Assembly: GCA_001799575.1 (NCBI GenBank)
Contig: MGTT01000006.1
Span: 1 to 64,000 of the forward strand
Length of the DNA stretch: 64,000 bases
Direction: 5' to 3'
Source of the DNA: Elusimicrobia bacterium GWA2_56_46
Lineage (GTDB): Bacteria > Elusimicrobiota > Elusimicrobia > Elusimicrobiales > UBA9959
In this document: positions 112-5,058 of the stretch, one piece after another
How the letters are laid out: every line of letters starts with the position of its first letter
Position numbering within the stretch: position 1 is the stretch's first letter
Made by a program: the position numbers and the translations under genes
The notes under the pieces: model-generated
Databases searched by the model: none
What the model was told of the DNA's origin: nothing
Seen by the model: only the letters and a program-made list of their open reading frames with translations

Positions 112-1455
112 CTAGGCTTCGTCTTCGACCAGCGGTCGGTGCTCCTCAGGTTGTCCTGACGCCGGGCTTTTTTTAAGCGGGGTCTCGTTCCACAGCCGCA
201 GCATCAGCAACGCGCCTGTAAGCGAGAACGGCATTATCATCCAGGTCCAGGCCCCCCAGCCGAATTTATCCAGCAGCGAGCCCATGAAGAAACCCGTGAG
301 GCCCGAGGCCAGGTACTGCACCCCGTCCAGCAGCCCTGTGACGGTGGAGGCCGCTTTCGTGCCGCCGAAGTCCATGGAGGCGGTGCCGGAAAGCATCCCG
401 TGCACTCCGAAGATCCACATACAGCAGACGCCTATCATAAACGAAGCCGCCAGCGGCGAGGCGGTCCTGCCCAGTATATATAAGGAGACGATCTGGCCCA
501 GGTAAAAGATGAACGCCACCGGGGCGCGTCTGGACTGGAACCAATGGTCGGACAGGTAGCCGCACAGGAGGCCGCCCGCTATGCCTCCAGCGGTGACGCC
601 GCTGCCGGCCAGGGTGAACAGTGAGCTGCCGTGCTCTATCTTGTGAACCTCGCTCAGGAAAGGCACGAACCAGAGCATCAGGCCCTGGCGCACGAATCCC
701 GTGCAGAATTCCGAGACCGCCAGCGTTATGATGACGGGGTTGGTCAGAACCCGCCGGAGCAGGTGGTTGAAGTCCGCCGGCTTGTCCCGGTCCGCGTCAT
801 TGGAGGTGGCGTCTCCGGTGTTGAAATTTTCGAAACCCGCGGCTTTCGGCGTGTCCTGCACCAGAAAAAAATCCACCGCGAACATCGCGGCTATGGCCGC
901 GGAGGGAATGAGGAACACGAAGTACCAGGGCAGATAGGCCAGGATCCAGCCGCCGACCGTCATGGCCAGGAAGTAGCCGCTTGAGATCATGATGCCGAAA
1001 ATGCCGCCGAAGATTCCCCTTTCCTTGACGTGGAACCACGGGGCGTTTACCTTGACTACCGACAGCGCGCCGAAAGACTGGAAGTACTGGTTGGCGGCGT
1101 ACAGGAGCGACATGCCCAGGATCAATTTTGTCTGCCAGCCGCTCAGGAAGAGGAGGCCTATGATCAGATTCAGGGCCGAGGCGCCTGCGGCTCCTATCAG
1201 GATCGCCTTTTTGCCTCCGATGCGATCCGCCAGCGGGCCGTTGAACATGACCGACAGGGCGTAGGTCCAGAAACCGGCCGTTGCGATGACGCCGAACTCT
1301 CCCTTGGAAAGGTGGAAGTAATCCATCATAGTCTTGCCGGCCACGTTCAGGTTGTAGCGGCCCATGTAGAAAGTCGCGTAGGTGAGGCCCAGCGGGAACC
1401 AGTTCATGAAGCGGCGGGTTCTGTATTCTTTGGTGTGGTTCATCGGGTTTGTCAT
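112..1455 (-). CDS. MFS transporter, organophosphate:phosphate antiporter (GlpT/UhpT/UhpC) type
   Basis: Inner-membrane secondary transporter of 447 residues with about twelve hydrophobic segments. The N-terminal signature RYNLN (residues 33-37) after the first helix and the DRIGGKK loop (78-84) are typical of the OPA branch of the MFS, which exchanges sugar phosphates or glycerol-3-phosphate for phosphate. The start ATG has an AAGGA Shine-Dalgarno and overlaps the stop of the upstream HAMP protein, so the two are translationally coupled. Placement after a membrane sensor-like protein and a receiver protein resembles the logic of the uhp locus. The substrate cannot be read from sequence, and a UhpC-like sensory role is possible. 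Confidence 0.85.
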   Translation of the reverse strand: MTNPMNHTKEYRTRRFMNWFPLGLTYATFYMGRYNLNVAGKTMMDYFHLSKGEFGVIATAGFWTYALSVMFNGPLADRIGGKKAILIGAAGASALNLIIGLLFLSGWQTKLILGMSLLYAANQYFQSFGALSVVKVNAPWFHVKERGIFGGIFGIMISSGYFLAMTVGGWILAYLPWYFVFLIPSAAIAAMFAVDFFLVQDTPKAAGFENFNTGDATSNDADRDKPADFNHLLRRVLTNPVIITLAVSEFCTGFVRQGLMLWFVPFLSEVHKIEHGSSLFTLAGSGVTAGGIAGGLLCGYLSDHWFQSRRAPVAFIFYLGQIVSLYILGRTASPLAASFMIGVCCMWIFGVHGMLSGTASMDFGGTKAASTVTGLLDGVQYLASGLTGFFMGSLLDKFGWGAWTWMIMPFSLTGALLMLRLWNETPLKKSPASGQPEEHRPLVEDEA

Positions 1456-2513
1456 ATTTTTTCCTTGCGTTCCGGTCCGTCGCGTTTTTGTTCATCAGCT
1501 ATCCTGCCGGAAAATTCGGGGTACAGTTTCTTCGCGCAGGCGGGGCAGAAACCGTGGGAAAACTTTATCTCGGAGTGCTTGTCGAAATATTCTTCCACCT
1601 GCCGCCAGTAGCCCTGGTCGTCCCGGATCTTCTTGCAGTTGGCGCAGATGGGCAGCAGGCCGGAAAGAGTTTTCACGTTCGCCAGCGCCTCCGTCAGATC
1701 CTTGTTCGCGAGCGCCAGGGCGCCCGTACGCTCCTGCAGCGAGGCGGCCATGGCGTTGAATGCGGAGGCCAGCGCTCCGAATTCGTCCCTGGAGGTGATG
1801 TCCGCGCGGACGCCAAAGTCTCCTTTGCTCAGGCCGGCGGCGGCCCGCTCAAGCTTGGAGATGGGCGCGGAGATGGATTTGAGGATGACGGAGGCGAGCC
1901 AGACAAGCAGTAAAAAAGACGCCAGCAGTCCCGCCGCCAGTATGATGCGGAGTTCCCCCAGCCGGCCCTGGGCGTAGCTTATATCCCTCCAGGCTTCTTT
2001 CTTTTCGTGGGTGGCCATGCGGGCTATTATGTCAAAAAAATCTTTTTCCGCGTCCGCCCCGGATCCCAGGCTTGTTTTTACCGGATTTTTATCCGGGCCG
2101 GGCCGGAGTTCGGGCGCCGCTTCTCCGGCGCCCTGGCCTATTTTACGCTCCACGGCGTCCAGTTCTTTGAGCAATGTTCTTATCTCAGCGTCGGAGGCGG
2201 GTTCGGAATCGGCAAAAGTCTTTTTATGGAGATCCATCGCTTCCCGGTTTCTGCGGAACCGGGCCAGATCCTGTTCCGCCAGATCCTTTTGTCCCAGTTT
2301 CAGCATACGACGGTGGGAGTTCATCGCTCCCGCCATTCCCCCGCCGGCCGTTTTAATCCGCTCCAGAGCTTCCATCTTGTTTATGGTTTCGTTCAGGATG
2401 GTGTGCTGTATCAGCCTGATCTCGCGGCCTTTGGAAGCGGCCAGCCAGGCGGTGGCCAGCGCCAGAATGGGGGGGGAGATAAGGCCCAGAAGTATCTTAT
2501 GGTTTATTTTCAT
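1452..2513 (-). CDS. HAMP-domain membrane protein with C-terminal Cys-rich module
   Basis: 353 residues. A first transmembrane segment lies near 8-25, then a helical periplasmic region, a second transmembrane segment near 188-212, a HAMP domain (about 210-262), a short coiled coil, and a C-terminal module (283-333) with the pattern LLPICANCKK...GYW...FSHGFCPACAKKLYPE. Cysteines C290, C293, C323 and C326 form two CxxC pairs likely to bind a metal. There is no kinase, cyclase or methyl-accepting domain. It overlaps the receiver gene by ATGA upstream and the transporter gene downstream. The same module ends the neighbouring receiver protein, so both may act on a common partner. The function of the module is unknown to me. 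Confidence 0.75.
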   Translation of the reverse strand: MKINHKILLGLISPPILALATAWLAASKGREIRLIQHTILNETINKMEALERIKTAGGGMAGAMNSHRRMLKLGQKDLAEQDLARFRRNREAMDLHKKTFADSEPASDAEIRTLLKELDAVERKIGQGAGEAAPELRPGPDKNPVKTSLGSGADAEKDFFDIIARMATHEKKEAWRDISYAQGRLGELRIILAAGLLASFLLLVWLASVILKSISAPISKLERAAAGLSKGDFGVRADITSRDEFGALASAFNAMAASLQERTGALALANKDLTEALANVKTLSGLLPICANCKKIRDDQGYWRQVEEYFDKHSEIKFSHGFCPACAKKLYPEFSGRIADEQKRDGPERKEKI

Positions 2514-3145
2514 CTTGGCCTGTTTTTTATCTCTTCCGACAATTCGGGATAAAGCTTTTTAATACAGTCGGGGCAAAAACCATGCGTAAATTCCATATCG
2601 GAGTGTTCTTTCAGATACATCTCCACTTGTTCCCAATAGCCGTTGTCGTTGCGGATCTTTTTGCAGCCGGCGCAGATGGGCAGCAGGCCCGTCAGGGTTT
2701 TTACGCTGGAGAGCGCCGCGGTAAGTTTATTTATGAGGTTAAGGCGTTCCTGCAGCAGTTTATTGCGCTCCATCGCGTAGACCGTCGCGCGCATCAGGAC
2801 GCCGGCATTTACTTCGTCTTTTATAAGATAATCCTGGGCGCCCTCCCTGACCGCCTGCAGGGCCATGGTTTCGTCGTCCAGTCCGGTCAGGATGATTATG
2901 GGGGTTTGCGGGGCGGCGGCCTGCAGTCCGCGAAAAGTAGCCAGGCCTCCGCTGTCCGGCAGATTAAGGTCGGAAAGGAGAAGATCAAAACGTTTTTTAT
3001 TCAGGAGATCCACGGCTTCCGAGAGTTTTCCGGCGGCGGAAAGCCGCATATCGCCGCGTTTAAAAGCCGCGATAAATTTTTTAAGCAGCAATAAATAATC
3101 GGGATCGTCTTCCAATATAAGAACTTCCACCGGTTTATCAGGCAT
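2510..3145 (-). CDS. response regulator: receiver domain plus Cys-rich CxxC/CxxC module
   Basis: 211 residues. Residues 1-125 form a canonical receiver with an acidic pair near 12-14, phospho-acceptor D59 (LLLSDLNLP), T87 and K109. A short coiled-coil linker leads to a C-terminal module (150-202) with C158/C161 and C191/C194, closely matching the tail of the following HAMP protein. There is no DNA-binding or enzymatic output domain, so the module is the probable output. It starts 2 bp after the TPR gene and overlaps the HAMP gene. No histidine kinase lies in this operon, so the phosphodonor must be encoded elsewhere. Confidence 0.8.
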   Translation of the reverse strand: MPDKPVEVLILEDDPDYLLLLKKFIAAFKRGDMRLSAAGKLSEAVDLLNKKRFDLLLSDLNLPDSGGLATFRGLQAAAPQTPIIILTGLDDETMALQAVREGAQDYLIKDEVNAGVLMRATVYAMERNKLLQERLNLINKLTAALSSVKTLTGLLPICAGCKKIRNDNGYWEQVEMYLKEHSDMEFTHGFCPDCIKKLYPELSEEIKNRPR

Positions 3146-3147
3146 GG

Positions 3148-5058
3148 CTATTTCCCCCTGGGGACATCCCCCCCGTTCCAGATCCTGCCGTTATGGCAGA
3201 AGCGGCGCTTTTCTCCTCCGCCGGTCCCGAAAAAGGCGGTGGTTCCGCCGGTTTCCGGGATCCACGTGTCTCCGGCGCGGTACCGTTCTACAAGTCCGGA
3301 CAATATCATCGCCGCCGAAGTATAGCATAACTCGGTTTCTACATGACATAAAAAGTATTTTCGCAGTCCAGGCGCGGTCAGCATTTTAATGCCGCAGGGA
3401 GGGGCCTGGAGGACATCTTCCGGGCAATCGGTGGCCTTTATCAGCCACAAATATTCAGGCTCGGATATTTCCATAAAACCGGTCTTCAGCAGTTCCCTGA
3501 TCCGCGCGTTGAACTTGTCGTCTTCCGGGGAGTTGGAGACGGTTTCATAACGCATAAGCCAGCTTTTGACGCCGGTTCCTCCGTTCCAGTAAGCCCGCAT
3601 CCCTTCCTGGGTCAGGTGTCCGCCCTTGTCAAAAAGAGGCCGCCCGGCGAGATCGCGCAGGGTGAAGATGTCACGCAGCGGGATGTTTTTTTTCTCGAAA
3701 AAATTTACGGCGTCGCGGGTGAGATAATTCCGGTAATTCTTAAAGCCCGCCAGCGTGAGTATAAGCCTGACATGATCCGGTTCCTGTTTCTCTACTATGG
3801 AACCTTTGGTGTAAGAGGTTTTGGCGCGGAGGTAATCCACGGCGCCGTTGCGCTCTGCCAGGCGTATGGCTTTGAGCAGGTTGACGTCTTCCGGCGACGG
3901 GACGGTCTTTTTGTCGTCCGGCGCTCCCCGGCCGCGCAGCTCCTCCAGGAGCTGGCTGTCGGACAAAAGGGCGAAACTTATTTCATCCAGACGTTCGCGG
4001 GCTTTCGCGTTGGCGGGTTCGGCTTTCAATACGCGGGCGTACATGGCTTCCGCCTTTTTGGGCTCCCCGCCGGCTTCATAGGCGGCCGCCAGACCCAGCA
4101 TGGCGTTCAGGTCGTTGCCGTTCGCTTCCAGGGCCTTGCCGTAGTACAGGATGGCTTTGTTCATCTTGTTCAGTTTAAAATAGATCTGGCCGGCCTTCAG
4201 GTGGCAGAAAGCCGCCATAGGGTCGGTCTTGCCGAACAGCTCCGCCGCTTTCCGGTATTCTTCCGCGGCGTCTTCATATTTCCCCAGCCGCGTGAGGTAT
4301 TCCGCCGTTTTCATGCGGTCCGCAAAAGATTCTTTTGGCGCTGGGTTCGGGGCGCGGGGCGCGGGGTTTGTAGCGCCGGGTTTTTTCTGCGCGGTTTTGG
4401 AACGGGCATCCGCGGAGAGGCGTTCGATCTTATTCCGGAGCAGTGCGGTCTGCGCGCGCCGGCCGGAGTCTTCGGAGGCGCTGAGGAGTTCCAGGGCTTT
4501 GCGGTAATTTGTCAGGGCGTCCGCGGTGTTTTTTTGTTTTTCATATTCTGCCGCCAGACAGTAGTAAGTCTTGTAGCTGCCGGGGTAAAGTTCCGCGCCC
4601 TGCGTAAGCGTTTCCGCCGCTCTGTCGCCGTCGCCGAGGCTTGAATATGTCAGCCCGAGTTCCCGGTATACGGGCCAGGCCGTGGGATCCAGTTCTCTGG
4701 CTTTTTTGCAGTTCGGCAGCGCCGCGGCGGCTTGTCCGGCGCCCCGGGCCAGCTTGCAGCGGCCCAGATAGTAGAGATACGTCCCGGTTTTCAGGGCGGC
4801 GGCTTTGTCGGTTATAGCGAGGAGGGGGGTGTGGTATTTGGACCGGCCCTCGGGGAGTATTTCCAGGGCGTAAGCGTAGATATTTTCGTCGGCCGGGTCT
4901 TTTTCCAGGGCCGCGATACAGGTCTCAAGGGCTTTGTCGATACGCCCGAGTTCGTAATATTTTGCCGCTTCCCGCAGCGCCGGGTTTTCCGCGACCGTGC
5001 CGGCCGGGGCGGGGCGGATCAGCGACAGAAGACATAAGAACGCGATCTGTAAACGCAT
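3148..5058 (-). CDS. secreted or periplasmic TPR-repeat protein
   Basis: 636 residues with an N-terminal signal peptide (hydrophobic core about 4-17, Ala-rich cleavage region). Residues 25-370 hold two blocks of tetratricopeptide repeats, separated by a Pro/Ala linker (NPAPRAPNPAP) encoded by a 7-bp repeat. The C-terminal 250 residues are not TPR and carry several cysteines (for example in TDCPED, PPCGIK and FLCHVETELC). I recognise no catalytic motif there. TPRs mediate protein-protein contacts, so an envelope scaffold is plausible. The gene is followed closely by the receiver gene. Confidence 0.7.
   Translation of the reverse strand: MRLQIAFLCLLSLIRPAPAGTVAENPALREAAKYYELGRIDKALETCIAALEKDPADENIYAYALEILPEGRSKYHTPLLAITDKAAALKTGTYLYYLGRCKLARGAGQAAAALPNCKKARELDPTAWPVYRELGLTYSSLGDGDRAAETLTQGAELYPGSYKTYYCLAAEYEKQKNTADALTNYRKALELLSASEDSGRRAQTALLRNKIERLSADARSKTAQKKPGATNPAPRAPNPAPKESFADRMKTAEYLTRLGKYEDAAEEYRKAAELFGKTDPMAAFCHLKAGQIYFKLNKMNKAILYYGKALEANGNDLNAMLGLAAAYEAGGEPKKAEAMYARVLKAEPANAKARERLDEISFALLSDSQLLEELRGRGAPDDKKTVPSPEDVNLLKAIRLAERNGAVDYLRAKTSYTKGSIVEKQEPDHVRLILTLAGFKNYRNYLTRDAVNFFEKKNIPLRDIFTLRDLAGRPLFDKGGHLTQEGMRAYWNGGTGVKSWLMRYETVSNSPEDDKFNARIRELLKTGFMEISEPEYLWLIKATDCPEDVLQAPPCGIKMLTAPGLRKYFLCHVETELCYTSAAMILSGLVERYRAGDTWIPETGGTTAFFGTGGGEKRRFCHNGRIWNGGDVPRGK
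4343..4370. repeat. heptamer array (GGGCGCG unit) inside TPR gene
   Basis: Four consecutive 7-bp units, GGGTTCG, two of GGGCGCG, then GGGTTTG. They encode the Pro/Ala linker of the TPR protein on the minus strand. It is one of about a dozen period-7 arrays in the window. Confidence 0.75.

Follow-up and report, generated by a model that had tools for sequence, protein, structure and literature searches.

The window analysed here is a stretch of 64,000 nucleotides from Elusimicrobia bacterium GWA2_56_46 (contig MGTT01000006.1, positions 1 to 64,000). Close to its start lie four tightly packed genes, all on the minus strand, which encode in order a TPR protein, a receiver protein, a HAMP membrane protein and an OPA-type MFS transporter. 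According to the coordinates of their open reading frames (ORFs), the receiver and HAMP genes overlap by 4 nt, as do the HAMP and MFS genes, while 2 nt lie between the end of the TPR gene and the receiver gene. The subject of this study is a small four-cysteine module at the C-terminus of both the receiver and the HAMP protein (Table 1). A sequence-only reading had proposed that these two adjacent proteins end in the same module, and this is confirmed: both ORFs are as described, and a search of the genome finds 70% identity between the two copies over 61 residues (E 2.8e-28), a likeness far beyond chance. In both copies 29 residues lie between the CxxC pairs. The genome of 2.66 Mb holds these two copies only. 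A recent duplication of the pair was considered but is not supported, as their mutual identity does not exceed the 72% that is seen to a copy from Verrucomicrobia.

The N-terminal part of the receiver protein is a standard receiver domain (PF00072, 76.1 bits against a cut-off of 30.2) with D59, T87 and K109, read from the sequence, at the usual positions; the column of the lysine is kept in 79 of 81 related receivers. Response_reg and HAMP are the only Pfam families above cut-off on the two proteins, with neither HisKA nor HATPase_c among them, and the module regions are left without a match. NCBIfam likewise recognizes only the receiver and HAMP parts. The claim that neither protein carries a kinase or a known output is thereby borne out.

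Table 1. Genes and features of the module locus, with positions in the window.
Feature	Position	Strand	Evidence
Receiver-module protein, 211 aa	2510..3145	minus	ORF; Response_reg E 3e-21
Receiver domain, residues 8-111	2813..3124	minus	Pfam PF00072
Continuous helix (receiver helix 5 into coiled coil), residues 114-147	2705..2806	minus	AlphaFold2 model; linker length class
C-terminal four-Cys module, residues 150-202 (C158, C161, H188, C191, C194)	2540..2698	minus	Identity to second copy; conservation; model
HAMP-module membrane protein, 353 aa	1452..2513	minus	ORF; HAMP E 3.8e-14
HAMP domain, residues 210-261	1731..1886	minus	Pfam PF00672
Second four-Cys module copy, residues 282-333 (C290, C293, H320, C323, C326)	1515..1670	minus	Genome search with first copy
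OPA-type MFS transporter, last gene of the tight cluster, outside the module itself	112..1455	minus	Pfam MFS_1, NCBIfam
TPR protein, 636 aa, first gene of the tight cluster	3148..5058	minus	Pfam TPR families

No family model for the module exists in the copies of Pfam and NCBIfam searched. When 16 diverse modules were compared on their own with Pfam, allowing E values up to 10, only weak and scattered zinc-ribbon names appeared, and the families disagreed; against NCBIfam the best value was 0.0017, in one of the 16, and against PHROGs it was 0.012, neither of which is convincing. In a profile search of solved structures, 7yjw_A (E 0.011, 25 positions, covering one CxxC half) and, next after it, glutamate dehydrogenases were taken as chance matches. 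A characterized domain, which would have spoken against a new module, was thus found neither in these three collections nor among solved structures. Nor was a description of the module found in openly licensed papers, supplements excluded, a search that did not extend to InterPro, CDD and COG.

The distribution of the module is wide. A scan of genome contigs was made by pattern, and each match was then checked for encoding a module relative; at least 572 of 584 matches do so, in line with the earlier claim that similar tails occur in other phyla. The titles of the best 80 loci by similarity, which form our first sample, include Verrucomicrobia, Deltaproteobacteria, Chloroflexi, Nitrospirae, Ignavibacteriae, Zixibacteriota, Hydrogenedentota, Bacteroidetes, Lentisphaerae, Neomarinimicrobiota, Spirochaetes, Aminicenantes and Acidobacteria, among others, and at least 13 phylum-level names carry module relatives. 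Of 149 sampled genomes from the phylum of the window, 15 have the module, with up to 9 copies each. The 19 genomes chosen from the best 80 loci hold from 1 to 40 copies, and one of them belongs to a phylum in which the module is present in 28 of 59 genomes. Genome G150, which includes locus L033 and stands for a cultured carrier, Dethiosulfatarculus sandiegensis, holds 10 copies. The 40 copies in a single genome (G164, loci L149-L184) include many proteins of about 200 aa that consist of receiver and module and belong to a second subtype, in which a few residues are inserted after the first CxxC and before the Trp. A viral or plasmid origin, as a module of mobile elements, was rejected on account of the rarity of the module there: one of 53 pattern-matching stretches in viral contigs encodes a relative, one of 72,556 plasmid records matches, and no match was found among the phage records searched. 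The plasmid copy, an unannotated relative at L148:4001-4138, lies on a plasmid of Dongshaea marina, where it is flanked by IS21 and IS91 transposase genes.

Since similarity had guided the choice of the first 80 loci, and a Cys/His pattern the extraction of their hosts, a second sample was taken, consisting of 80 stretches with most module copies of genomes G164, G203, G209, G150 and G172 and some of G188, G218 and G159. This sample was searched by profile without a pattern and gave 91 hosts from eight genomes. The four cysteines are kept in all 91, as expected of the metal site that had been suggested. Of the other residues, Trp is conserved in 90 hosts, both Arg and Pro in 89, and His in 88. 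The histidine of the original motif is therefore well conserved but not fully invariant. At the centre of L027, on the minus strand, there is a short stand-alone module that matches weakly and still keeps both CxxC pairs.

An AlphaFold2 model of the window receiver protein (mean predicted local distance difference test score, pLDDT, 90.5) shows an unbroken helix leading from the receiver into the module. The module part has short strands at 163-165 and 171-173, a helix at 174-181 and a further helix that starts at 192, inside the second CxxC. A model of the module alone gives the same order of elements (mean pLDDT 88.5); all models are single chains without metal. The order of CxxC knuckle, hairpin and helix at the second CxxC fits a treble-clef finger in the two models, with one extra helix inserted and with no structural match, and in our own reading the predicted fold is treble-clef-like. 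We infer that the four cysteines hold a metal ion, probably zinc. Small treble-clef or zinc-ribbon domains such as the ClpX N-domain, McsA and DksA have a CxxC, a hairpin and a second CxxC at the start of a helix; the predicted order in the module is like theirs, with no match found in sequence or structure.

Among published domains, the archaeal HalOD2 and TackOD1 come closest in idea; in excerpts of their description (PMC5847659) they share the arrangement of a receiver followed by predicted zinc-binding CxxC pairs with no assigned function. Their defining features, as far as these excerpts give them, differ from those of the module. In HalOD2 the CxxC pairs are 20-25 residues apart and follow a HalX-like part, as opposed to 29 residues in the two window copies, and HalOD2 was described from a few halobacteria whereas the module is spread over many bacterial phyla. 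TackOD1 has 11 conserved cysteines in five CxxC and one HxxC, compared with four cysteines here (PMC5847659). The same excerpts report a proposal that HalOD2, as the zinc-finger output of a receiver protein, binds nucleic acid. By analogy, the module could bind DNA or RNA through an unusual zinc finger, making its hosts regulators of transcription or translation, and the CxxC pairs together with a KKIR stretch would suit such a role. We consider this unlikely, since the module carries on average a net charge of -1.2 (from -5 to +3 across 91 copies), the weak zinc-ribbon scores in Pfam are scattered without agreement, and transmembrane-like segments, unusual for DNA binding, are seen in 39 of the 87 host ORFs from L031-L111.

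The place of the module within its hosts is constant, and what precedes it is not. It is C-terminal in all 91 hosts of the second sample, followed by a tail of only 2-39 residues, and a receiver is present in 52 of them. The inputs are otherwise varied and include PAS, GAF, Cache, multi-transmembrane, HAMP and TPR parts. Consistent with this, Pfam assigns 58 families to 79 hosts of the first sample, and PAS, Response_reg (23), GAF, HAMP, Cache, 7TM and TPR are among the 25 most frequent. Recognized catalytic outputs are almost entirely missing. The full first set (117 host entries, the two window hosts being listed twice) contains no match to the ATPase profile and none to simple GGDEF or HD-GYP patterns, and no GGDEF-like pattern was found in the 91 profile-picked hosts. 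A kinase ATPase occurs in just one of these 91, although the same profile detects 49 ATPase ORFs in the same 80 loci. That lone host (L165:7797-9317, minus strand) is a 507 aa kinase-receiver-module hybrid in which the receiver directly precedes the module. In two further hosts, at L142:7041-8405 and L137:7004-8359, both on the minus strand, the module is joined to a Tll0287-like domain (PF11845), a heme sensor.

Being always C-terminal in proteins without a recognized catalytic output, the module occupies the place of a kinase core or a GGDEF domain, and it looks like an unnamed, widespread output part of bacterial sensory proteins. The opposite direction of signalling would make it an input, that is, a C-terminal thiol or metal sensor that alters the dimer and hence how far the N-terminal part is phosphorylated or active. 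Four cysteines and a nearly constant histidine in one small domain would fit such a sensor, coupling through a coiled coil can in principle work both ways, and receiver-attached domains may be inputs, as stated in excerpts of PMC5847659. Yet the N-terminal partners (PAS, GAF, Cache, 7TM) are inputs already, so that nearly all hosts would be left without an output, and the cysteines are constant even where the input already senses. An input role is therefore improbable in our estimate.

The connection between receiver and module follows a strict rule of length. Setting aside receivers that are separated from the module by other domains, the distance from the receiver lysine to the first cysteine takes the values 34, 36, 41, 42, 48, 49, 54, 55, 56, 62, 69, 87 and 90 below 110, with one more at 111. 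In 52 of 62 cases it is 6 modulo 7; the remaining ten include seven that are 0 modulo 7, the window protein (49) among them, and in these seven the loop after the lysine is, by eye, one residue longer. Because the length of this loop varies, the distances were recounted from the receiver helix 5 column of the profile alignment, and then 60 of 61 receiver hosts are 2 modulo 7 (23, 30, 37, 44, 51, 58 and 79), with 76 as the sole exception. Allowing one vote for each combination of receiver cluster and length, 17 of 18 votes agree at 35% identity, 22 of 23 at 40% (p about 4e-17) and 32 of 33 at 50%. PAS hosts behave in a similar way: the end motif of the PAS domain is 28, 35 or 42 residues from the first cysteine in 58 of 70. 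Within the coil, positions -17 and -10 relative to the first cysteine correspond to heptad position a, -14 (mostly Ala, 80% hydrophobic) to d and -13 (mostly Leu, 69% hydrophobic) to e.

Such features are familiar from other sensory proteins. For Rec-GGDEF enzymes, excerpts of PMC8041772 describe linkers whose lengths differ by multiples of seven and a heptad of ambiguous a-d-e type, which are tied to a register switch, and for phytochrome cyclases excerpts of PMC9587094 report linker steps of seven together with a -4 class. The module hosts share with the diguanylate cyclases of the DgcR type the receiver, the extension of its helix 5 as a coiled coil and the C-terminal output (PMC8041772, in the same excerpts); they differ in that the output is a small four-cysteine domain with no GGDEF and no known catalytic motif. 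With PAS-linked histidine kinases they share the inputs and the place in the chain, but not HisKA or ATPase domains, save for the one host with an ATPase upstream of its receiver. The module is accordingly read as an output domain, and the coiled coil that couples it as one of fixed helical phase. The strict heptad phase, indicating tight structural coupling, and the position of the module as the last element of the chain would also agree with a mere clamp that caps the coiled-coil dimer, the true output then being the input domain or the coil. For a cap, however, such good conservation of polar R, E, Y and H and of a D-D-x-G turn across phyla is unexpected, and we regard this explanation as very unlikely. 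That polar residues are strongly retained although the inputs differ greatly suggests a single shared binding surface.

We favour, as probable, an explanation in which the module acts as a small output domain at the C-terminus, dimeric and metal-binding, which is driven by the coil and binds a shared partner; the metal, the dimer, the register switch and the partner are all deduced rather than observed. In a fold like that of a treble clef, the four cysteines would bind a single metal ion, which is probably zinc, and the module would cap a parallel two-helix coiled coil that is continuous with the input domain. The inputs, whether a receiver phosphorylated by a separate kinase or PAS, GAF, Cache, multi-transmembrane or HAMP parts, may alter the rotation or register of the coil. 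This change would rearrange the two modules of the dimer, and the rearranged pair would expose or hide a conserved surface for binding the partner, which is most likely a protein. Within the window, the receiver protein would represent a kinase-regulated arm and the HAMP protein a membrane-sensor arm with a common output module. The earlier idea of a cysteine-dependent protein-interaction module is plausible.

Several observations weigh against this explanation. The third cysteine reads Arg at L056, either a natural loss or a sequencing error. The five module-alone models differ in confidence, from 88.5 down to 57.1 in the worst; Foldseek gives no match at E < 0.001 in PDB and BFVD, and in a realignment of 34 chains with VIA-align none reaches Z 2. 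In 17 proteins the module is 59% identical and the receiver 27%, a contrast that points toward a shared binding surface but is inflated by the similarity-based choice of loci. Among the PAS hosts, 12 of 70 have other distances, namely 18 (4), 24 (2), 25 (3), 39 (2) and 47 (1); inspection by eye places many of these motifs within the coil, yet 24 and 25 occur at apparent PAS ends. As a control, the distance from PAS end to H-box was taken for kinases of the same loci, and the 16 cases are of mixed phase. The comparison with kinases is therefore drawn from the literature, and a rule common to kinases and modules is not shown by these counts.

In a bolder and distinctly tentative extension, the module might define a signalling class of its own beside histidine kinases, diguanylate cyclases and chemoreceptors, in which up to 40 different sensors per cell would feed, by way of fixed-phase coils, into dimers of the same metal-binding module, all of them docking with one shared partner, with no second messenger and no onward transfer of phosphate. 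In bacteria, many receiver and PAS proteins are recorded as lacking an output, and for a large set of them the module is probably that output; once it has a name, many orphan response regulators and sensors could be re-annotated across phyla. The seven-residue rule also provides a handle for in-phase swaps of outputs between known sensors and the module, by which function and partner could be tested.

Kinases and receivers are the genes enriched around the module genes. Next to receiver-type hosts, kinase genes fill 35 of 172 adjacent positions; at a distance of two genes the count is 21 of 156, and at three genes it is 5 of 119. For other hosts the corresponding numbers are 11 of 243, 13 of 219 and 3 of 187. 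The kinase genes beside receiver-type hosts speak for the favoured explanation. As some loci are common to both samples, these counts are not fully independent. GGDEF and HATPase_c are found in all 22 module-bearing genomes examined, which leaves both eligible as partners by this criterion. CheW, a chemotaxis protein, is missing from 11 of the 22 and the SpoIIE phosphatase from 4, including the genome of the window, and so neither is required by the module; both were dismissed as obligate partners. Tandem arrangement as in the window is real in places but was rejected as a general rule, the adjacent gene also encoding a module in only 8 of 172 (receiver hosts) and 12 of 243 positions (others). 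At L228 (G159:C85), five module ORFs occur in about 15 kb and some of the modules are nearly identical.

The transporter encoded in the window belongs to the MFS, phosphoglycerate/UhpC/GlpT (OPA) type. Its best NCBIfam model is TIGR00881, with 145.3 bits against a cut-off of 407.75, and its UhpC-like score is also under the cut-off. The sequence-only reading had suggested that the module belongs to a transport-linked pathway with OPA transporters, to which the 4-nt overlap of the HAMP-module gene with the transporter gene lends itself. The order of receiver, membrane sensor and OPA protein resembles that of uhpA-uhpB-uhpC, though without a kinase; an OPA-type protein is present as in Uhp/Pgt transport regulation, but a kinase domain is lacking from both module proteins. 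Elsewhere the association fails: neither the transporter nor the TPR protein of the window has a match among 1133 ORFs near other module copies. The transport link is therefore local to the window and not general, and a pathway of this kind is highly improbable as the role of the module.

A different local arrangement is seen at L136:4382-7376, where a gene for a HAMP-PAS-HisKA-ATPase kinase is succeeded by one for a lone receiver and then by one for a GAF-module protein. Genes of like sizes occur in the same order at L113 and L130, a likeness of size and order alone.

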